The notes under the pieces were generated by a model. That model saw only the letters and a list, made by a program, of their open reading frames with translations. It was not told the DNA's origin and made no database searches. From IMG/VR virus record IMGVR_UViG_3300048921_000195, positions 1-26,967 of that record: 26,967 bases of DNA; one strand, given 5' to 3'. Positions 4,203 through 26,967 of the stretch are shown one piece after another. Position 1 is the first letter of the stretch; every line of letters begins with the position of its first letter. The stretch comes from a virus. Position numbers and translations under genes: made by a program.

Positions 4203-4742
4203 CTATTTTTGGCAGTCAAGTCGGCTTCGCTGAAAGTCATCCATTAATTGGTAGTACTGCGTTGGCCATTCCTGGGCAGTCGCATTCAATTTGTCCACTG
4301 CGGCAATGATTTCCTCATTGCTATCTACGATCAGAGTGTCTCGGACAGCCGAAGCAACTTTTATTGCAGATATGCCCATTTCGGTCGGGGCAAATGCGGA
4401 GAACTCAAGCGCGGACCTCATGGTTTTGACTGACAGAGAAATCATTTCATCATTTTGTACTGATGCATCTGCCCCCCTACCGAACTGGTCGGAGAGGTTC
4501 CCAAGGAACATGGCGGCTTTTTCTCGTATGCGAACTTCCTGCTGGTCCAGCCTTTGAATACAACTCTGGGCGCTCGCCTGACGGGTTGTTAGATAGCTTG
4601 AGTAAAAAGTGAGTCCAGCGCCTATTCCAGTGACTAGTGAGGCAATGACGGCGATAAGAATTGCTTCGTTAAATCGCTTCTTCTGTTCAGGATTCGTTGT
4701 TTCGTGAGTCTGCATCTTTTTGGTCACTGAATTTCTATCCAT
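4203..4742 (-). CDS. Membrane-anchored hypothetical protein (moron)
   Basis: Not recognised. The reverse-strand product of about 179 residues has a charged, Lys-rich N terminus, one strong hydrophobic segment at roughly residues 27-50 (AILIAVIASLVTGIGAGLTF), then a mostly helical polar domain with one Cys just after the membrane segment and one at the end. This predicts a single-pass inner-membrane protein with the bulk in the periplasm. The gene is opposite to the operon, visibly richer in A+T than its neighbours, and sits exactly between the MuF and scaffold genes, which is how phage morons look. The ATG at 4742 was chosen over a TTG at 4745; an internal ATG at 4715 is possible, and none has a strong ribosome-binding site. 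A superinfection-exclusion or host-fitness role is inference only. Confidence 0.72.
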   Translation of the reverse strand: MDRNSVTKKMQTHETTNPEQKKRFNEAILIAVIASLVTGIGAGLTFYSSYLTTRQASAQSCIQRLDQQEVRIREKAAMFLGNLSDQFGRGADASVQNDEMISLSVKTMRSALEFSAFAPTEMGISAIKVASAVRDTLIVDSNEEIIAAVDKLNATAQEWPTQYYQLMDDFQRSRLDCQK

Positions 4743-4803
4743 CAAGTCAGTTTCAGGGCTTTGGAAAAGCGTCGGGAGATGCTAGCAAAGAACGTAATTT
4801 CCG

Positions 4804-15327: not shown

Positions 15328-16092
15328 ATGCGCAAACACATTTTGACCGCGATCCAAGTTCACGCGGCGGCCGAGTACCCGAAAGAGTGCTGCGGTCTGC
15401 TGTTGGCCGTGGGGCGCAAACAGCAGTACTACCCCTGCCGAAACGTCTCGACCGAGCCAAACGAAGAGTTCCGAATCGATCCGGAGGAATACGCTGCGGC
15501 CGAAGACGTAGGCGAGGTGATCGGCGTGGTGCATTCGCATCCGGACGCCACCAGCAGGCCGTCACCGCGCGACCTGGCCATGTGCGAGGCGACAGGCATG
15601 CCGTGGCACATCCTGAGCTGGCCCGAGGGCGATCTGCGAACCATCATGCCTTCCGGTGAGGTGCCGCTGCTCAAGCGCCCATTCGTGCACGGTGCCTGGG
15701 ACTGCTGGCAAGTCTGTGCAGACTGGTACAAGCGCGAATGGGGGCTGGAGTTCGAAGCCTTCAAGCGCTCTGACGGCTGGTGGGAGATCAAGGACAACAC
15801 CAGTCTGTACGAGGCGAACTACGAGGCCGCCGGCTTCTACCGGGTCGACCAGCCGCAGCGCGGCGATATGATCGTGATGGAAGTGGGGCGGTCGGTTTAC
15901 CCGAACCACGCGGGAATTTTCCTCGGCGCTGATCCGGCACTGCCAGGCGAGGATGCCGCGACGTTCGGCCCCGGCCCGTTCCTGCTGCACCACCTGTACG
16001 GCAGGCCGTCCGAGGTCATTGTCTTCGGCGGCCCGTGGCTAGACCGAACGAGCCTGGTCCTCAGGCACAAAGATGCACAACCAACGACATGA
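15328..16092 (+). CDS. Tail-tip peptidase gpK-like (JAMM + NlpC/P60)
   Basis: Two-domain enzyme of the tail tip: an N-terminal JAB1/MPN metalloprotease-like domain and a C-terminal NlpC/P60 peptidoglycan cysteine peptidase domain, thought to aid assembly and local wall digestion at entry. In this 254-residue protein the JAMM motif is complete: Glu20 (ECCG), His69 and His71 (HSHP), Ser79 and Asp82 (SPRD). The NlpC part shows Cys126 in WDCWQVCADWY, His194 in PNHAGIFLG and a further His pair at 221-222, consistent with an intact Cys-His active site. The gene begins right after the gpL stop. Its last 20 bases overlap the upstream-extended frame of the next small ORF, after which the moron island interrupts the normal K-I order. 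Confidence 0.93.
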   Translation: MRKHILTAIQVHAAAEYPKECCGLLLAVGRKQQYYPCRNVSTEPNEEFRIDPEEYAAAEDVGEVIGVVHSHPDATSRPSPRDLAMCEATGMPWHILSWPEGDLRTIMPSGEVPLLKRPFVHGAWDCWQVCADWYKREWGLEFEAFKRSDGWWEIKDNTSLYEANYEAAGFYRVDQPQRGDMIVMEVGRSVYPNHAGIFLGADPALPGEDAATFGPGPFLLHHLYGRPSEVIVFGGPWLDRTSLVLRHKDAQPTT

Positions 16093-16117
16093 TGCGGTAG
16101 CACAGCTGGAGCAGGGA

Positions 16118-16363
16118 ATGGAAATCGGTCAGAAATACACGCTGAACATTCGAAATTTATTTGGCACCTCCAGCAGCGTGGTATGCGGCGTGGAAGTTGT
16201 TGTCGCTCTTCTCGACGGGGACACCGAGATCGACCGTTTGAACTTCAAGGGCAAAGTTGGCCCCGGTGGTGATGGCTTCAGTCTCAGCTATACCGGGAAG
16301 CCAGGGCTGAGAGCCGAAATCATCTCGGACCCCGGATCCGTTACGCTGACGAATCTTGCTTAA
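16118..16363 (+). CDS. Small hypothetical protein in K-I moron island
   Basis: Not recognised. An 81-residue product (MEIGQKYTLNIRNLFGTSSS...) dominated by alternating hydrophobic residues (VVCGVEVVVALLDGDTEIDR), suggesting a small beta-sandwich and no membrane anchor. I prefer ATG 16118 because GGAG at 16108-16111 lies 6 bases upstream; an in-frame ATG at 16073 would overlap gpK and add 15 polar residues. Its TAA stop overlaps the TAA stop of the converging reverse-strand gene in a shared TTAA (16360-16363). It is the first gene of an insertion that separates gpK from gpI. Confidence 0.65.
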   Translation: MEIGQKYTLNIRNLFGTSSSVVCGVEVVVALLDGDTEIDRLNFKGKVGPGGDGFSLSYTGKPGLRAEIISDPGSVTLTNLA

Positions 16364-16563
16364 GAGGTCCAGACGAAGTCATCTGTACCTGGCCTGTGCG
16401 ATCCGTGACGTACTAGATAGCCTTCACCAGCATCAGCTGCTACAGACTCAGCTTCCTCTTCGCTTGGGTATATGCCAAGGAAACTCCACGGCGAGTTCCT
16501 AACAACACCCCAACCAAGCACCCACCCGGCGTTATCTGGGTCCTTCGGAAATTCTCTGCTCAT
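16360..16563 (-). CDS. Small reverse-strand hypothetical protein
   Basis: Not recognised. The 67-residue product (MSREFPKDPDNAGWVLGWGV..., ending GTDDFVWTS) is Trp-rich, acidic and without signal peptide or membrane segment. Its middle reads like a short 'SLGIYPSEEEAESVAADAG' domain of unknown function. It is real on these grounds: a good ribosome-binding site (AAGGAAAG about 6 bases before the ATG), a stop that exactly meets the converging gene, and codon use distinct from the opposite frames. It probably forms a reverse-strand unit with the membrane protein gene upstream of it (start at 17187). Confidence 0.65.
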   Translation of the reverse strand: MSREFPKDPDNAGWVLGWGVVRNSPWSFLGIYPSEEEAESVAADAGEGYLVRHGSHRPGTDDFVWTS

Positions 16564-16605
16564 TTCACTTTCCTTGCGTTATCCGCGCCGAATTGGGCGC
16601 AATCC

Positions 16606-16635
16606 CAGTCCTTGGGCTTGCGGGCAAAAGGACTG
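16606..16635. repeat. Inverted repeat between the two reverse-strand morons
   Basis: CAGTCCTT (16606-16613) and AAGGACTG (16628-16635), 8 bp perfect arms with a 14-base centre. Neither side is followed by a U-tract, so it is not a clear terminator. It lies in the gap between the membrane protein stop and the small gene's start on the reverse strand and may be an operator or RNA hairpin. Confidence 0.5.
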
Positions 16636-16650
16636 ATTATTTGTAGTCAA

Positions 16651-17187
16651 TCAGCATTGTTTGATTTGTTTCCAAGTGGTCGCCGTTTTCTTTGCGATCC
16701 TGATTTGTTCTTGCCGTACTTCGCGATCTTTTGCTCGCCTCAGAGAGAGATATCTGGAGGGGATGGTTCTCGTGAAACCATGCCCCAGGCGACCTGCTTC
16801 TTGAAGGAGCGTCTCAACAAACGCTTTCTGGGATAACCACCACACCTCTAGCGCGAGCGGTGGACCCATGTAAACAAGTTGGTAAATGATTCGACTGGTT
16901 GAAGTGTTAGTTTGAAGCGCGACTAACATGATCCCCATCGATACGATCGCTGACAACATGAAAGCTACAAAAAGCGCGCCTTCTTTTTGAATCTGTCGCT
17001 GTACAGCGAAGGCATCGACACGAATCGCCTTCGCCTTTCTCAGCTCTTTGCATCGAGACCGTCGGAAGGCTCTCCGCGCGGCGAACTGTGCGGGAACGAA
17101 AGCTTTTTTGAAGCCCCAAAAAGCCAGAGCGACCAGAACAGGGAGATACAGATCTTTGTAACTAGGCAAATCAGTAGCGAGATCCAT
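16651..17187 (-). CDS. Reverse-strand membrane protein (moron)
   Basis: Not recognised. The 178-residue product has an N-terminal hydrophobic segment (LYLPVLVALAFWGFKKAFV, residues about 13-32), a basic cytoplasmic-looking stretch rich in Arg/Lys, a second strong segment (GALFVAFMLSAIVSMGIMLV, about 70-90) and a third moderate one (IIYQLVYMGPPLALEVWWL). The C terminus is long and basic. This suggests an inner-membrane protein with two or three passes. ATG 17187 is preferred because AAGGA lies 6 bases upstream; a TTG at 17217 would extend it by 10 residues without support. Lower GC than the flanking tail genes, opposite orientation and insertion between K and I mark it as an acquired moron. 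A role in superinfection exclusion is inference. Confidence 0.7.
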   Translation of the reverse strand: MDLATDLPSYKDLYLPVLVALAFWGFKKAFVPAQFAARRAFRRSRCKELRKAKAIRVDAFAVQRQIQKEGALFVAFMLSAIVSMGIMLVALQTNTSTSRIIYQLVYMGPPLALEVWWLSQKAFVETLLQEAGRLGHGFTRTIPSRYLSLRRAKDREVRQEQIRIAKKTATTWKQIKQC

Positions 17188-17245
17188 CCACAATCCTTCT
17201 GGAAAAATAAGGCACAACGCTACTACTTATGGATCCAATTTTTCC

Positions 17246-17280
17246 ACTGTCCTTTCATCCACGCTGGATGCCCGGACAGT
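17246..17280. promoter_or_regulatory. Nested palindrome in divergent intergenic region
   Basis: ACTGTCC (17246-17252), TTT, CATCCA (17256-17261), CGC, TGGATG (17265-17270), CCC, GGACAGT (17274-17280). Outer 7-bp and inner 6-bp arms pair with a symmetric 3/3 internal loop. It lies between the start of the reverse membrane protein gene and the forward lipoprotein gene, where promoters and operators of both would be. No U-tract follows on either strand. Confidence 0.6.
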
Positions 17281-17347
17281 ATCGATGGCTAAGGCAAGCA
17301 TTACCGGTATGATGAGTGGCTATATTCAAAAACGGAAAAAGCAGTTG

Positions 17348-17665
17348 ATGCGTCAGTTTCTTGTGCTTGCTTTGGTATGCGTATTGTCGGCTTGCAAGAC
17401 CGTCGGACGGCCTATATCCCATGCTGACACCGATCAAATAACCAAAGGGGTTACCACTCGGGAAGAACTCCTGAATCGCTTTGGGCCACCCTATCTACTC
17501 AGCGAAGACGCAAATGGAAACAAGATGGTGAACTGGGTCTATGTTCGGTCTGGTTTTTTAGGGTTCGGCTATAAGAGTCAAGCTTTTACCGCGCGGTTTG
17601 ATTCTTCAGACAGAGTCATCGACTCATTGTTGACAGAGAAGTCAGAGCCCACCAGGCATAGGTGA
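17348..17665 (+). CDS. BamE/SmpA-like lipoprotein (moron)
   Basis: Predicted outer-membrane lipoprotein. The 105-residue product from ATG 17348 has a signal peptide MRQFLVLALVCVLSAC with lipobox LSAC (Cys16), and Lys at +2, which does not signal inner-membrane retention. The mature part carries the SmpA/OmlA pattern: ITKGVTTREELLNRFGPPYL, a short variable loop, NWVYVRSG, then a Phe-rich strand ending RVIDSLL. Cellular BamE binds BamD/BamA and phosphatidylglycerol in the outer-membrane protein assembly machine; this phage copy may mimic or compete with it, which is inference. In-frame ATGs at 17309, 17312 and 17285 give a longer basic N terminus and cannot be excluded; ribosome-binding sites are weak for all. 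Confidence 0.75.
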   Translation: MRQFLVLALVCVLSACKTVGRPISHADTDQITKGVTTREELLNRFGPPYLLSEDANGNKMVNWVYVRSGFLGFGYKSQAFTARFDSSDRVIDSLLTEKSEPTRHR

Positions 17666-17756
17666 GGCGCATTGCTGAGCCCTGTCCTGCGCTGGGCCTT
17701 TTGCATCGCTTCAACTGCTGCTCTACATTGCCCAGATTTCCACGGGAGTGACCTGC

Positions 17757-18098
17757 ATGAAATTGATCGTAGGAGCGCTGGCGTTAGCGCTGTTGGCGGG
17801 GTGTTCATCGCCTTCTGACCTCTTGTCTGAAGCGCCGGCGATTACTGTGTCCTCTGCAAAAACACCGAAATCCTTCGCGCTCTGTGTCTTCCCTGCTTGG
17901 CAAGAGCACAACTCAAATGCCAGCATGAGTGAAACAACCACCGGTTACCGCCTGGTCAACGGATTTGCACAGCAGACAGACGATGTGCTGGACATCAGCC
18001 ATGCGAAAGTTGGGAGCGTGGCAAAACTCTATCAGCGGGTCGCATGGTCTCAAATTGGACGGGGATCCTTGCGAGACTCAATTCAGAAGTGCAAATGA
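17757..18098 (+). CDS. Small lipoprotein (moron)
   Basis: Family not recognised. A 113-residue product with a clear lipoprotein signal peptide: MKLIVGALALALLAGCSS, lipobox LAGC with Cys16 and Ser at +2, predicting outer-membrane sorting. The mature domain contains a Cys in FALCVFPAW and one at the C-terminal end (QKCK), which could form a disulfide, and a TTTGYRLVNGFAQQTDDVLD segment. GGGAG at 17744-17748, 8 bases upstream, supports ATG 17757 over the GTG at 17748. It follows the BamE-like gene in the same direction and ends 8 bases before a terminator hairpin, so the two lipoproteins are probably a unit with its own stop. A surface role, such as receptor masking, is plausible but unproven. 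Confidence 0.75.
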   Translation: MKLIVGALALALLAGCSSPSDLLSEAPAITVSSAKTPKSFALCVFPAWQEHNSNASMSETTTGYRLVNGFAQQTDDVLDISHAKVGSVAKLYQRVAWSQIGRGSLRDSIQKCK

Positions 18099-18106
18099 AT
18101 ACAAGA

Positions 18107-18127
18107 CCGCCGAAAGGCGGTTTTTTT
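18107..18127 (+). terminator. Terminator-like hairpin before gpI
   Basis: CCGCC (18107-18111), tetraloop GAAA (GNRA type), GGCGG (18116-18120), seven T (18121-18127), then ATG and the ribosome-binding site GAAGGAG of the gpI gene. The sequence TTTTTTTATG recurs at 4818-4827 and 18764-18773. Confidence 0.8.
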
Positions 18128-18143
18128 ATGGAAGGAGAAAATT

Positions 18144-18728
18144 GTGGCCGCCATTACCGGCATGACAACCATCAAGCTGTCGGGCTCTCTTGCGCAGAAG
18201 TTTGGCAGGTCTCACGCCAAGAAAATCGATTCGGGTACATCCCGCGAAGTCTTCAAGGCCATGAGCTGCACTGTCGAAGGCTTTGAGGCGGAGATCAAAA
18301 GGCTTGCCGCTCTGGGGATGCGTTTCGCAGTTTTTCGAAATCGGGTGAATGTTGGTGAAGCTGAGTTGGATCTTGGTGGAACCAGAGAGATTCGAATCGT
18401 GCCCGTTGTCGAAGGGAACAAGCGCGCTGGCGTTCTGCAAACTGTCGTTGGTGTTGTGCTGTTAGCAATTTCCTACGCGCTTCCCTTCACCGCGCCCTAT
18501 TTGACGCCCGCCGGTATTGGCCTCATCGCTGGTGGTGTAATCCAAATGCTCAGCCCTCAAGCCTCGGGCCTGAAGCAAAGCGCTTCTCCGGAAAACGCAC
18601 CGTCCTACGCCTTCGGCAGCGCCAAGAACACCACGGCCAGCGGCAACCCGGTGCCGATCTGTATCGGCGAACGGCGGTGGGGCGGGATGATCATCTCGGC
18701 CTCGATCCTGGCCGAAGATAAAGTGTAA
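18144..18728 (+). CDS. Tail assembly protein gpI-like
   Basis: Needed for assembly of the lambda-type tail tip, probably in an early initiator complex with gpJ and gpL; it may not stay in the virion. The 194-residue product starts at GTG 18144, with GAAGGAG at 18131-18137 six bases upstream. The pattern is that of lambda tail I: N-terminal TTIKLSGSLAQKFGRSH, central FRNRVNVGEAELDLGG, then a Gly/Ala hydrophobic pair (VVGVVLLAISYALPF and AGIGLIAGGVIQML), and the C-terminal SYAFGSAKNTTASGNPVPIC with GERRWGGMIISASI. Position just before gpJ confirms it. It is separated from gpK by the moron island and flanked on both sides by near-identical hairpin types. Confidence 0.93.
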   Translation: MAAITGMTTIKLSGSLAQKFGRSHAKKIDSGTSREVFKAMSCTVEGFEAEIKRLAALGMRFAVFRNRVNVGEAELDLGGTREIRIVPVVEGNKRAGVLQTVVGVVLLAISYALPFTAPYLTPAGIGLIAGGVIQMLSPQASGLKQSASPENAPSYAFGSAKNTTASGNPVPICIGERRWGGMIISASILAEDKV

Positions 18729-18748
18729 GCAGGACAGCAAGACACCAA

Positions 18749-18770
18749 CCGCCCGCGAGGCGGTTTTTTT
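18749..18770 (+). terminator. Terminator-like hairpin before gpJ
   Basis: CCGCC (18749-18753), loop CGCGA, GGCGG (18759-18763), seven T (18764-18770), followed by ATG CCTGGAGGAAAG. The stem is identical to that at 18107-18120. It ends 16 bases before the gpJ start codon. Confidence 0.8.
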
Positions 18771-18786
18771 ATGCCTGGAGGAAAGC

Positions 18787-21700
18787 ATGGGCGCAGCGGA
18801 ACAGATTGAGATCCACGGCGAGAAGGGTGGCAGCAGCAAGCCGAAATCGCCGGTCGAAGCCAGCGACAGCCTGCGCTCGACCAACCTGGCAAAGCTGCTG
18901 ATCGCCGTGGGCGAGGGCGAGTTCGACGCCGTACCGACTGAGTACGACATCTACTTGGACAACACGCCGATACGCGATGCTAGCGGCAGCTACAACTTCC
19001 CGAACGTGAAGTGGGACTGGCGCCCGGGCTCGGTGGATCAGACCTACATTCCGGGCATCCCGTCCGTTGAAAATGAGACGTCGCTGAACATCGAGCTGCG
19101 CAGTGATGCGCCGTGGGTGCGCTCGATCACCAATACCCAGCTGTCGGCCGTGCGCATGCGCCTGGCTTGGCCAGCGCTTCAGCAGTCTGACGATCAGGGC
19201 AACATCGGCGGTTACCGTATCGAATACGCCATCGACGTGGCCACCGATGGCGGCGCCTATCAGCAGGTGCTGGTGGATGCCGTCGACGGCAAGACCACGA
19301 CCCGCTACGAGCGCTCGCGCCGCATCGATCTGCCGGACGCCACCACGGGCTGGCAGATCCGCGTGCGCCGTCTGACGCCGAACCAGAACAGCAACAAGAT
19401 CGCTGACACCATGCTGGTGGCCGGTTACACCGAGGTGATCGACGCCAAGCTGCGCTATCCAAACACCGCGCTGCTCTACATCGAATTCGACGCCGAGCAG
19501 TTCACCAATATTCCGGCTGTGACCGTGAAGTGCAAGGCCCGGCGCTGGATGGTGCCGAGCAACTACGACCCGATCCTGCGCACCTATACCGGGACGTGGG
19601 ATGGCTCGATGAAGTCGGCCTGGACCAACAATCCGGCGTGGATCACCTACGGTATCTGCACGAATGAAATGTTCGGCCTGGGCAAGCGCATCAAGCCGTT
19701 CATGGTCGACAAGTGGGAGCTGTACCGGATCGCGCAGTATTGCGACCAGTTGGTGCCGAACGGGCTCGGCGGTCAGGAGCCACGCTTTCTCTGTGACATG
19801 AACCTGCAGGGCAAGGCTGATGCCTGGTCGTTACTGCGCGACATCTCGGCGATTTACCGGGGCATGACCTACTGGGCTCAGGGGCAGCTGGTGATGCAGG
19901 CGGACATGCCGCGCGCGCAGGACTTCGACTATGTCTTCACCCGGGCAAACGTCATCGACGGGAAGTTCTCGTATGGCAGCGCATCGGCGAAGACCCGGTA
20001 CACCCGGGCGTTGGTCAGCTACGACAACCCGGCCAACAACTACGATACTGACGTCATCCCGTTCGCCGATCTGGATTTGCAGCGCCGGTACGGCGACCGG
20101 CCGACCGAACTGAGCGCCATTGGCTGCACCCGGGCGTCCGAGGCTCAGCGCCGAGGTAAGTGGGCGATCCTCAGCAACAACCAAGACCGCACCGTGTCTT
20201 TCAAGACCGGCATGGAGGGTGTGATCCCGTTGCCGGGATACATCATCCCTGTCGCGGACTCGCTGCTGGCAGGGCGGGAGGTTGGCGGGCGGATCTCGTC
20301 GGCGGCCGGCCGCGTGGTGACGCTCGACCATGACACCCTGGCCAAGGCCGGTGATCGATTGATCATCAACCTGCCCGGCGGGCGCGCTGAAGGCCGCACG
20401 GTGCAGAGCGTCAACGGCCGCGCAGTAACCGTCACGACCAACTACAGCGAGCCGCCGGTGGCACAACTTCAATGGGCGCTTGACGCGGATGACCTGGCGA
20501 TCCCGCTATACCGCGTCCTTCGCACCAAGCGCACGACCGAAGGCGACTTCGAAATCAGCGCGTTGCAGTTCGAACCGAGCAAGTTCGCGCACATCGACAC
20601 CGGCGCCCGCCTGGAAGAACGGCCGATCAGCGTGATTCCGATCACCGTGGTTCCGGCGCCGGCCAGCGTGACCGTCGCGTCGACGTCCTCGATCGTCCAA
20701 GGGCTTGCCGTGGCCACGATGACCATCAGTTGGCCTGCCGTGGATGGCGCGGTCGGCTATGACGTGGAGTGGCGCAAGGACAGCGGTAACTGGATCAAGC
20801 TGCAACGCACTGGCATGACCAACGTCGACGTGGTCGGCATTTACGCCGGCGCCTACGTGGCCCGGGTGCGGGCGGTGAGTGCGTACGACATCACTTCGAT
20901 CTGGCGCAATTCGATCCTGACCAACCTCAGTGGTAAGCAGGGGTTGCCGCCGGCGCTGAGTTATCTGACGGCCACGCCGCTGTTGTTCGGCATCTACCTC
21001 AAGTGGGGATTCCCGGCCGGCGCCGAGGACAGCCAGCGAACAGAGATCTGGTACGGCCCGACCACGGAGCTGGACGCCGCCACCAAGTTGACTGATCTGG
21101 CGTACCCGCAGAGTGATTTCTCGATGCTCGGTCTACGCGCCGGCGTGACGTTTTATTTCTGGGGACGGATCGTCGACAAGATTGGCAACATCGGGCCGTG
21201 GTTCCCGATTGGCACGGGTGTTCAAGGCCAGTCGAGTGCAGACGCCGCTGCCATTCTGGAAATGATCGCCGGCGAGATTGGCCGCACGGAGCTGGGGCAG
21301 GACATCCTCGACGAAATCGACAAGATCCCGGGGTTGCAGGCACAGATCGATGCGCTGGATGGGCTCAAGGGGTATGACCCAGACGCCACCTATGTCGAGT
21401 TCGACCTTGTAGTCGTCGGCAAGCGCATCTATCAAGCTACCGGCCCCGTACCTGTCGACACTCCACCGCCGAATCCTGCGTATTGGCTCGATGTGGGTCA
21501 AACCGTGGAAACAGCAAATGGCCTGGCTCAACAGGTAGCGACCAACACCGCCGATATCGTTGAGCTCGACGGAGCGGTCACCGCCCAGGCTACGGCATTT
21601 GAAGCGTTGCGGGCGGCCTATCGATATGACGACGGAGAGGGCGAACTGGCGGACGCTTTGAAAGGGTGGACCAGCACCGCCAGTATTGCCGAAGAGAGTC

Positions 21701-22353
21701 GGGTCAGGGCTTCGGAAACCAAAGCTTCTGCCCGGAGAATCACTACCTTCGACGCCAAGATTGCTGAAAACTCGGCGAACATCACGCTGCTCGAGGAAGT
21801 GGTGGTTACCAACGAGCAGGCTACCGCCCAGCAGCTCACCCAACTGAGCACGAAGGTCGGGCAGCAGCAGACCGCGATCGAGCAGAACAGCTCAATCATC
21901 AACGACGTGAACGGGAAGGTCACGGCGAGCTGGTCGGTGAAGATGCAGTACAACTCCGGGACGGGGCAGTACATCGCTGCGGGCATTGGGCTGGGGATTG
22001 AAAACAGCAGCGGCATTCTTCAAAGCCAGTTTCTGGTCAGCGCCGATCGGTTCGCCATCGTCAACACAATCGCGGGCGGAGCCATTGCGGTTCCGTTCGC
22101 GGTTCAGGGTGGGCAGACGTTCCTGAACTCGGCGTTCATCGCCGACGGCACCATCACCAACGCCAAGATCGGCAACTACATCAGTTCCACTAACTACATC
22201 GCCGGCCTGCAGGGCTGGATCCTCAACAAGGACGGCACGTTGGAAATCAACGGAATCGTCCCAGGGCAGGGCCGGCTGGTGATCAACTCACTGAACGTTT
22301 CGGTCTACGACGCCAACAACGTGTTGCGCGTCCGTCTTGGTTATCTGGGGTAA
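18787..22353 (+). CDS. Host specificity / central tail fibre protein gpJ-like
   Basis: Tail-tip hub and receptor-binding protein that determines host range. The 1188-residue product begins MGAAEQIEIHGEKGGSSKPK, an N-terminal signature of this family. A phage-tail hub part includes YGICTNEMFGLGKRI at about residues 288-302. Fibronectin type III-like repeats occupy about 618-810 (VTVASTSSIVQGLAVATMTI, then GAVGYDVEWRKDSGNW). A helical connector follows, and a C-terminal DUF1983-like region (from about 1040) contains SVKMQYNSGTGQYIAAGIGL and ends NVLRVRLGYLG. GGAGGAAAG just upstream supports the ATG. Length is close to lambda J (1132). Receptor choice would depend on the C-terminal region and cannot be read from sequence. 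Confidence 0.94.
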   Translation: MGAAEQIEIHGEKGGSSKPKSPVEASDSLRSTNLAKLLIAVGEGEFDAVPTEYDIYLDNTPIRDASGSYNFPNVKWDWRPGSVDQTYIPGIPSVENETSLNIELRSDAPWVRSITNTQLSAVRMRLAWPALQQSDDQGNIGGYRIEYAIDVATDGGAYQQVLVDAVDGKTTTRYERSRRIDLPDATTGWQIRVRRLTPNQNSNKIADTMLVAGYTEVIDAKLRYPNTALLYIEFDAEQFTNIPAVTVKCKARRWMVPSNYDPILRTYTGTWDGSMKSAWTNNPAWITYGICTNEMFGLGKRIKPFMVDKWELYRIAQYCDQLVPNGLGGQEPRFLCDMNLQGKADAWSLLRDISAIYRGMTYWAQGQLVMQADMPRAQDFDYVFTRANVIDGKFSYGSASAKTRYTRALVSYDNPANNYDTDVIPFADLDLQRRYGDRPTELSAIGCTRASEAQRRGKWAILSNNQDRTVSFKTGMEGVIPLPGYIIPVADSLLAGREVGGRISSAAGRVVTLDHDTLAKAGDRLIINLPGGRAEGRTVQSVNGRAVTVTTNYSEPPVAQLQWALDADDLAIPLYRVLRTKRTTEGDFEISALQFEPSKFAHIDTGARLEERPISVIPITVVPAPASVTVASTSSIVQGLAVATMTISWPAVDGAVGYDVEWRKDSGNWIKLQRTGMTNVDVVGIYAGAYVARVRAVSAYDITSIWRNSILTNLSGKQGLPPALSYLTATPLLFGIYLKWGFPAGAEDSQRTEIWYGPTTELDAATKLTDLAYPQSDFSMLGLRAGVTFYFWGRIVDKIGNIGPWFPIGTGVQGQSSADAAAILEMIAGEIGRTELGQDILDEIDKIPGLQAQIDALDGLKGYDPDATYVEFDLVVVGKRIYQATGPVPVDTPPPNPAYWLDVGQTVETANGLAQQVATNTADIVELDGAVTAQATAFEALRAAYRYDDGEGELADALKGWTSTASIAEESRVRASETKASARRITTFDAKIAENSANITLLEEVVVTNEQATAQQLTQLSTKVGQQQTAIEQNSSIINDVNGKVTASWSVKMQYNSGTGQYIAAGIGLGIENSSGILQSQFLVSADRFAIVNTIAGGAIAVPFAVQGGQTFLNSAFIADGTITNAKIGNYISSTNYIAGLQGWILNKDGTLEINGIVPGQGRLVINSLNVSVYDANNVLRVRLGYLG

Positions 22354-25628: not shown

Positions 25629-26088
25629 TGGTTGTGCCGTGGCGTGCTATCGGTGCGGCCGCGCTGGTGCTGCTCGGCGCCGGCAGTGCCTGGCAATTCC
25701 AGAACTGGCGCTACGGGGGCAGTTGGCGGAGCAGGCCCGGCTGCACACAGAAGCCCTGAATCAGCTGACCATGGCCGCTCCCACCGCGCAGAAGTCCGAG
25801 CAGGACAAGCGCCTGGCGCTAGAGCAGCGGCAGGCGGCCAGCGACAAAACCCACTCCGAGAAAATGACCAATGCTCAAAAAGCCCAAGCTCTTCTGCGCG
25901 ATCGCCTTGCCACTTCTGATCTGCGGCTGTCAGTCCTCCTCGACGCAGGTTCAGCCGGTGGCTGCTCAGTGCCTGCCACCGCCGGCGCCGTGGATCATGC
26001 AGCCGTACGCGCCAGACTTGACCCAGCGCATGCTCAACGAATTGTCGAGATAAATAGCGGGCTCAATTGGTCAAACTTGCGCACTTAA
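25628..26088 (+). pseudogene. Rz: Rz-like inner-membrane spanin, frameshifted and 3'-truncated
   Basis: Inner-membrane spanin subunit that, with Rz1, fuses inner and outer membranes at lysis. Frame one starts at ATG 25628 and gives the N-terminal anchor (VPWRAIGAAALVLLGAGSAW) followed by QFQNWRYG, then becomes nonsense and stops at 25757-25759. After GGGGG (25715-25719) the -1 frame continues with the expected Rz body: QLAEQARLHTEALNQLTMAA, RLALEQRQAASDKTHSEKM and LRLSVLLDAGSAGGCSVPAT. A single missing base in the G run explains both frames. The C terminus runs DPAHAQRIVEI and then NSGLNWSNLRT, lacking the usual '...GLIAL.ACQ.Y' ending, so the 3' end also appears lost near 26050. A sequencing homopolymer error is possible for the first defect but not the second. 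Confidence 0.8.
25871..26053 (+). CDS. Rz1: Rz1-like outer-membrane spanin lipoprotein, nested in Rz
   Basis: Outer-membrane spanin encoded in an alternative frame inside the Rz gene. The 60-residue product MLKKPKLFCAIALPLLICGC... has a lipoprotein signal peptide with a Cys at position 20 (ICGC), then a short Pro-rich mature part (CLPPPAPWIMQPYAPDL), typical of Rz1. The nested arrangement matches the Rz/Rz1 pairs of lambda-like phages. The end (MLNELSR) is shorter than many relatives as I remember them and coincides with the place where Rz loses its normal ending, so a few C-terminal residues may be missing. Upstream GAGAAAATG offers a modest ribosome-binding site. Confidence 0.85.
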   Translation: MLKKPKLFCAIALPLLICGCQSSSTQVQPVAAQCLPPPAPWIMQPYAPDLTQRMLNELSR

Positions 26089-26967
26089 TTTATCTTTTTT
26101 ATGAACGGCAAAATCTGCGCATAAATAATCCCCCATATTGCCGCGATCAAAAGATTGAAGGTGATTAGGCGAAATACCGCAAAAAAGGCAGCGTATACGA
26201 TCATCGTAATTAACGTTGCTCGAATCAGGGTATAGGGGGTCGATTCCGATTTGACCAAATTCAGCCGAAAAACTACAGGGCCAAATAGCACAAAAGCGTA
26301 AATTGCGAGCCCGCTAATTCCGCCTACCATCAACATGTAAAATGGCCAATTGTGAACATATCCGACAGATTTGGTTAGTAAAGTGCCCTCTGAAGTTTCC
26401 CATTGCATTTCATGTTTAATACCAAAGCCATTGCCTAGCGCAGGATTTTCTAAGAACATCTTCCATGCAATGCTGTACTCATAAAGTCGCGAACTGACAT
26501 TGAAGTCCTTAGTATGATTTTTACTAGGTTCTTCTGTTGGTTCTGCGGCGCTTCTTGTACTGTTGATAGTGTTTTTTCTAGTTGAATCCTTTGAGTATGG
26601 TGTTGCTTGAGTGTTGTCGCTTTTTACGCTAGATGACTGAATTATTGTTTCTGGTGCTGTGTAGGCTTTGATGTCGCTTTTATCTATGTCAGTAAATTGC
26701 TTTGCGTTTTCGGACGATTTGCCGGCTTCATTCTTTTTAGTTAGGGTAGGCGTTGGTGGTGCATATGCAGTTGAGTCTATTTCTAATGGCCGCACTTCGA
26801 CCAAAGTGCTCATTCTGCCGATCCATATGTCCTGCATTCCAGTAGCGAAAATGAAAGATAATCCAGTGCCGATAAGAATTGTGGAGATCGATAATAATTT
26901 CAGTCGCAATGATTTGCGGAAAAATAGAATAAATAATGAAAACAAAGCTATAGTTAGCACTGCGCTC
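26085..26967 (-). CDS. O-antigen ligase/polymerase-like membrane protein (5' partial)
   Basis: Wzy_C/O-antigen ligase-type integral membrane protein acting on lipid-linked glycan repeat units at the periplasmic face. The frame is open to the window edge, so the N terminus is missing; the GTG at 26960 is only an internal codon. After one or two hydrophobic segments there is a hydrophilic Ser/Thr/Lys-rich stretch of about 100 residues (26460-26800). The conserved part follows: SRLYEYSIAWKMFLENPALG, NGFG, then YVHNWPFYMLMVGGISGLA (periplasmic His/Asn loop), and two more membrane segments to the end. It is much more AT-rich than the phage genes and is on the opposite strand. It may be a host gene next to the prophage end or a phage-carried serotype-conversion gene. 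Confidence 0.82.
   Translation of the reverse strand, partial: SAVLTIALFSLFILFFRKSLRLKLLSISTILIGTGLSFIFATGMQDIWIGRMSTLVEVRPLEIDSTAYAPPTPTLTKKNEAGKSSENAKQFTDIDKSDIKAYTAPETIIQSSSVKSDNTQATPYSKDSTRKNTINSTRSAAEPTEEPSKNHTKDFNVSSRLYEYSIAWKMFLENPALGNGFGIKHEMQWETSEGTLLTKSVGYVHNWPFYMLMVGGISGLAIYAFVLFGPVVFRLNLVKSESTPYTLIRATLITMIVYAAFFAVFRLITFNLLIAAIWGIIYAQILPFIKKIN

Follow-up and report, generated by a model that had tools for sequence, protein, structure and literature searches.

The virus record IMGVR_UViG_3300048921_000195 of IMG/VR contains, in the 26,967-nucleotide stretch analyzed here (positions 1 to 26,967, hereafter the window), tail genes in the lambda-type order H-M-L-K-I-J, with an island of small genes lying between K and I. 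The last gene of this island, lipo2 (17757..18098, + strand), encodes a 113-amino-acid lipoprotein (phrog_914) and is followed by gpI (18144..18728, + strand), the gene of the tail-tip plug protein. Among relatives, lipo2 varies together with residues 1 to 132 of gpI (18144-18539) and not with residues 133 to 194, while the C-terminal part of the host-specificity protein gpJ (18787..22353, + strand) varies independently of it. This joint inheritance, which extends even into satellites, suggests a guard against DNA entry by phages with the same plug, and we put at roughly 50% the probability that lipo2 is a superinfection-exclusion or immunity lipoprotein keyed to the plug gpI and not to the receptor.

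Relatives of the gpK-like tail gene (15328..16092, + strand; JAB and NlpC/P60 domains by Pfam and PHROG matches), which is the left border of the site, were collected from viral contigs and 84,980 species genomes with gpK as the anchor. The hosts of its near relatives were almost exclusively Pseudomonas genomes, chiefly fluorescent species. After identical copies had been dropped, 143 loci with K, I, and J remained, and a lipoprotein gene was found directly 5' of gpI in 132 of them and at about 200 to 240 nt in two more; it was missing before gpI in seven empty sites and two distant loci. The lipoproteins belong to two mature families, A (the type of the window, phrog_914) and B (phrog_890). 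We compared the identity of the mature lipoprotein with that of the neighbor proteins in 122 loci. In family A, rho was 0.71 for gpI, 0.19 for K, 0.34 for L, 0.37 for the N-terminal part of J (J-N), and 0.09 for the J C terminus (0.65, 0.18, 0.20, 0.21, and 0.03, respectively, in family B). After control for L, K, and J-N, the partial rank correlation between lipoprotein and gpI was 0.67 (A) and 0.63 (B), values reached by 0 of 500 permutations; for the J C terminus the partial correlation was -0.02 (A) and -0.05 (B). All 756 locus pairs whose gpI proteins shared at least 85% identity had the same lipoprotein family, and pairs with J C termini at least 80% alike shared it at a frequency of 0.49, versus 0.50 by chance. 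Along the same lines, the A/B label changes only 6 times on the gpI tree, versus 36 times on the K tree, 37 on the L tree, 36 on the J-N tree, and 44 on the J C-terminal tree. A match between lipoprotein type and the J receptor region, also considered, was rejected with a correlation of about zero.

Diversity within the block is concentrated in gpI, with a mean identity of 0.69, versus 0.88 for L, K, and J-N. Along the gpI sequence, the partial correlation with the lipoprotein was mostly 0.4 to 0.7 over residues 1 to 132 (the lowest value, 0.30, appeared in family A only) and 0.2 or less from residue 133 onward. The protein matches phrog_32 (E 2e-61), and its residues 122 to 192 align with residues 141 to 211 of lambda gpI (Lambda_tail_I, E 4e-11). 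In lambda, gpI plugs the tail tip; upon opening, its C-terminal part stays with gpJ, and the N-terminal domain and helices H1 and H2 vanish from view (PMC11101478, PMC10721106). These two helices have been proposed to insert into the outer membrane (PMC11101478). The co-varying residues comprise the N domain and the hydrophobic helices, and most of the sequence beyond residue 132 aligns with the part of lambda gpI that stays in the tip. Since the co-variation is confined to residues 1 to 132, the stretch of gpI linked to the lipoprotein is the one believed to come into contact with the envelope.

The pairing is also found outside tail operons. Phage phiAH14a has a family B lipoprotein and gpI pair in its tail operon and a second pair in the leftward lysogeny region near the CI repressor (L416, 3025-3945, gp33-gp32). 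The lipoprotein of this second pair has an intact lipobox (MRIAALGLAVALLSGC...), its annotated start being too late, and the nearest relative of both members is L245 (79% and 76%). The satellite phiAH14b, shown to use phiAH14a capsids (PMC4936722), contains gpI followed by a family B lipoprotein; gpI is its only annotated tail gene. This order, the reverse of that in the tail operon, is found in the satellites phiAH14b, G323, G108, and G364 and in an element in G379, and this reversal speaks against simple transfer of both genes as a single block. Among phiAH14b relatives, L592 and L597 have kept primase, helicase, p17 to p19, gpI, and lipoprotein, and L598 has two gpI genes and a lipoprotein; another element, L593, has p19, gpI, and a lipoprotein. 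In Klebsiella and Serratia phages the order K-lipoprotein-I is kept at 30 to 40% identity. A family B lipoprotein also stands alone in Vibrio phage H20 (L413), directly 3' of a cI-like repressor.

Some further arrangements were noted. Five Pseudomonas satellites (L592, L597, L598, L593, and L419) share a conserved module, p19-gpI(-gpI)-lipoprotein, in which p19 had no family match. Tandem gpI genes were seen in G324, G364, G288, G361, and G129, and stand-alone DUF2846-like family B lipoproteins in L411 (HK639), between the H and M genes, and in L412 (SSU5), beside a repressor.

The preliminary description of the window had called lipo2 a second lipoprotein with two mature cysteines, and the relatives bear this out: in 49 of them the lipid cysteine (C16, after LAG) is invariant, and so are two further cysteines of the mature part. 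A segment holding the ribosome-binding site and signal peptide (17735..17804, + strand, ..GGAGTGACCTGCATGAAATTGATCGTAGGAGCG..) is constant and common to families A and B, whose DNA sequences resemble each other over a stretch of about 65 nt leading up to the Cys codon and diverge beyond it. Homology of the mature families was rejected, as profile comparison detected only 19 leader residues; therefore, one leader serves unrelated mature domains. The protein is presumably located at the outer membrane.

According to the mechanism that we propose, lipo2 would be anchored in the outer membrane, facing the periplasm, as the cognate partner of the neighboring gpI. An incoming virion of the same type would push its gpI N domain and hydrophobic helices into the outer membrane and periplasm, where the lysogen's lipo2 would recognize them. 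This recognition would stop DNA entry, resulting in homotypic superinfection exclusion, and the two proteins would relate to each other as effector and immunity protein do. The contact between lipo2 and gpI, its timing, and the exclusion itself are what we infer from the pattern of inheritance. A more tentative possibility, to which we give clearly less credence, is that each prophage excludes virions of its own gpI type and that satellites carry their own gpI and lipoprotein so that their particles enter helper lysogens. Particles assembled from helper parts would in that case bear a different plug and could enter the lysogens of the helper. On this reading, gpI would serve as the specificity tag of lipoprotein-based exclusion in lambda-type siphophages, and the two genes would form an effector-immunity pair that phages and satellites exchange.

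Several observations weigh against exclusion keyed to the plug. Solitary gpI loci (L594 to L596) and the seven empty sites have gpI and no lipoprotein, and no promoter was identified for lipo2. Its predicted fold (beta-alpha-beta4-alpha, helix-grip-like, predicted local distance difference test [pLDDT] score of 83) had its best matches, at Z of about 8, among unrelated proteins, so that no fold family could be assigned. The unlinked C terminus of gpI is very conserved and therefore offers little variation with which to correlate. In addition, the lipo2-gpI spacer of 40 to 72 nt co-varies with both genes, and the upstream DNA and the lipoprotein leader show little or no co-variation with gpI; block recombination from the conserved leader to the conserved gpI 3' end could by itself yield the correlation. 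This is the core of the main rival explanation, in which lipo2 would be a generic envelope moron that tracks gpI by sharing a recombination block between conserved flanks. Other neighboring genes are also correlated with each other (K and L, 0.64 to 0.66), which counts in its favor. We nevertheless consider such hitchhiking rather unlikely, as it leaves unexplained why pairs exist at a distance from the tail operon, why satellites have the opposite gene order, and why the arrangement is maintained in distant phages.

As a small outer-membrane-type phage lipoprotein adjoining tail genes, lipo2 could also act by receptor masking, attaching from the periplasmic side to an outer-membrane receptor so as to prevent adsorption, in the manner of Cor, Llp, and Rtp45. 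Llp and Rtp45 provide precedents, and a likeness to Cor was suggested for the phiAH14a lipoprotein by the authors of PMC4936722. This explanation seems improbable because the receptor-binding part of gpJ shows no association with lipoprotein type, with both rho and the partial correlations near zero, whereas in the mEpimmI phages lipoprotein type tracks receptor use. Moreover, a profile of the 49 lipo2 relatives matched no solved exclusion-lipoprotein chain, a PDB sequence search with families A and B gave no matches, and the mature part of lipo2 is longer than Llp (98 versus 61 residues). Finally, lipo2 might be a late-gene factor that helps gpI in tail-tip assembly, or in its action at the envelope when the phage itself infects or is released. 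Its strand and place, which are those of the tail operon, the near-constant pairing, and the presence of both genes in satellites agree with such a role. In 122 of 122 loci, though, a terminator lies between lipo2 and gpI, lipo2 is predicted to be exported whereas tail assembly is cytoplasmic, and the empty-site phages retain gpI without a lipoprotein, all of which make a helper quite improbable.

For exclusion keyed to the plug, the closest proven parallel is SieA of P22, which targets injected proteins, with escape changes mapping to the ejection proteins gp16 and gp20 (PMC10883804). As proposed for lipo2, SieA exclusion is directed at injected virion proteins and not at the receptor, but SieA is an inner-membrane protein of podophages, while lipo2 is an outer-membrane-type lipoprotein encoded beside a lambda-type plug gene, with a predicted role. 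T5 Llp, the Cor proteins of phi80, N15, and T1, Rtp45, and mEpimmI Lpp are likewise small phage lipoproteins adjoining tail genes, and Llp and Cor likewise have an internal disulfide. All of these target the receptor and correspond in type to the receptor-binding protein, whereas lipo2 type matches gpI. PMC4936722 deals with these gpI (TAPI) and lipoprotein genes in phiAH14a and phiAH14b, proposing the likeness to Cor for the tail-operon lipoprotein, and contains no account that we could find of the pairing, the co-variation, or the second phiAH14a partner as a lipoprotein. Nor did we find, in the open-access literature searched, a description of a lipoprotein whose type corresponds to that of the tail-tip plug and that is exchanged jointly with the plug. 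Phage exclusion lipoproteins are already known, and the new part would be one matched to the plug and exchanged together with it. If true, this would add a second exclusion route besides the lipoproteins that act on receptors. A lipoprotein of this kind would give a biological reason for the fast-changing N-terminal part of gpI and explain the single tail-tip gene of satellites that use helper capsids, and it would bear on what the gpI N domain and hydrophobic helices do at the envelope.

The site itself had been described as a moron island between gpK and gpI, and, with small coordinate corrections, we recover five open reading frames (ORFs) there, two of them on the reverse strand. The reported fall in guanine-plus-cytosine (GC) content is also seen (from about 60% around the island to 49 to 53% within it), as is the terminator that closes it (18104-18127). 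Across the 143 loci, the K-I gap ranges from 2 to 4,734 bp and holds many small gene families, and in the seven empty sites it is reduced to 2 bp (four prophages) or 51 to 52 bp (three). Being variable among relatives, the gene content at this position is not fixed, and the K-I site is a true moron hotspot, with contents present in some relatives and absent in others. What did not stand was the treatment of the island as a single unit, as lipo2 travels with gpI and the other four genes (orfA, orfB, orfC, and lipo1) reassort freely, each in few loci. Insertion at a tRNA was rejected, no tRNA being present in the window or the sampled loci. PADLOC found no known defense family for the island genes, only a weak match for orfC (E 0.013), and NCBIfam gave weak matches only, mostly at the level of signal peptides.

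The four remaining genes are ordinary exchangeable morons with shared regulatory elements. All of those described earlier (a small forward ORF, two reverse genes, and a first lipoprotein) are present. The forward orfA (16073..16363, + strand, 96 amino acids, phrog_38193) starts inside K, overlapping its end, and is present in 7 K-I loci; orfB (16360..16563, - strand, 67 amino acids, phrog_4280) is convergent with it, and other phages have the pair in the I-J gap. The inner-membrane-type protein orfC (16651..17217, - strand, 188 amino acids; likelier ATG start at 17187) has a strongly hydrophobic segment plus one or two less pronounced ones, in keeping with the membrane protein first described, and 6 distinct relatives, the window included, all from such phages. 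The lipoprotein lipo1 (17348..17665, + strand, 105 amino acids, phrog_3135) has five distinct relatives. The revised starts of orfC (17187), lipo1 (17348), and lipo2 (17757) were chosen from lipobox and ribosome-site positions. The BamE/SmpA likeness claimed for lipo1 failed by sequence, with no match to Pfam BamE/SmpA_OmlA, and held weakly by predicted fold, where BamE chains were in the top three (probability 1.00, E 0.01, template modeling score 0.52 to 0.62) for a model with a pLDDT of only 71. Unlike BamE, lipo1 is a rare cassette and not a Bam complex gene.

A palindromic constant leader of about 55 nt (16583..16638, - strand; hairpins CAGTCCTT..AAGGACTG and GCGCC..GGCGC) precedes the K-proximal reverse gene and was detected in 61 loci. 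Among 160 distinct contexts, 136 are on the strand opposite to K and 250 to 1500 nt downstream of it, 20 have no K in view, and 4 are atypical. It is followed by 24 gene families, with the start codon mostly 31 to 33 nt further on. Rfam gave no match for the leader and none anywhere in 16000-18800; since its sequence hardly varies, it more probably serves as an anchor for regulation or recombination than as a covarying RNA. The divergent orfC and lipo1 flank a 35-bp dyad, ACTG-N6-CATCCA-N3-TGGATG-N6-CAGT (17246..17280), a candidate operator/promoter region. In the 143 loci (2.68 Mb) its copies number 58 in K-I, 7 in I-J, and 1 elsewhere, and 0 in shuffles. Some reverse genes have an upstream CTGTACGAATCCCCAG (CTG-N10-CAG, LexA-box-like) in place of the dyad. 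Sigma-70-like matches were slightly above shuffles, none of them at leader, dyad, or terminator sites. The + strand intrinsic terminator of the lipo2-gpI spacer (18104..18127) is present in 122 of 122 relatives, versus 1 to 4 in shuffles, and a second one in the gpI-gpJ spacer (18745..18767, + strand) in 78 of 78. With terminators after both the lipoprotein and gpI, lipo2 could in principle be expressed without gpI. Late transcripts must pass through these terminators, as they do in antiterminated lambda-type late operons. As judged from these motifs, cassettes with their own regulatory elements would fit prophage expression apart from the tail operon. The Tab/anti-Tab system of Pseudomonas phage JBD26, which has a promoter of its own, is likewise a moron on the reverse strand within a prophage late operon, although it differs in its site (between terminase genes), its proteins, and its target, the tape measure protein (PMC10884400).

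The sequence CATTACCGG(T/C)ATGA occurs both before lipo1 (17299-17312) and at the gpI start (18152-18165), and this repeat may reflect an earlier position of the gpI start or be due to chance. One contig labeled as Streptomyces (L407) contained a Pseudomonas phage gpK fragment, a probable contamination. Elsewhere in the window, an ORF of 180 amino acids among the head genes (4203-4745, - strand), with one membrane segment, a weak PHROG match, and a GC content of about 50%, probably marks a second moron site. Near the window end, an ORF with an O-antigen ligase (Wzy_C) domain and a GC content of 43% (26085-26960, - strand) is possibly a surface-modifying gene beside the lysis region.

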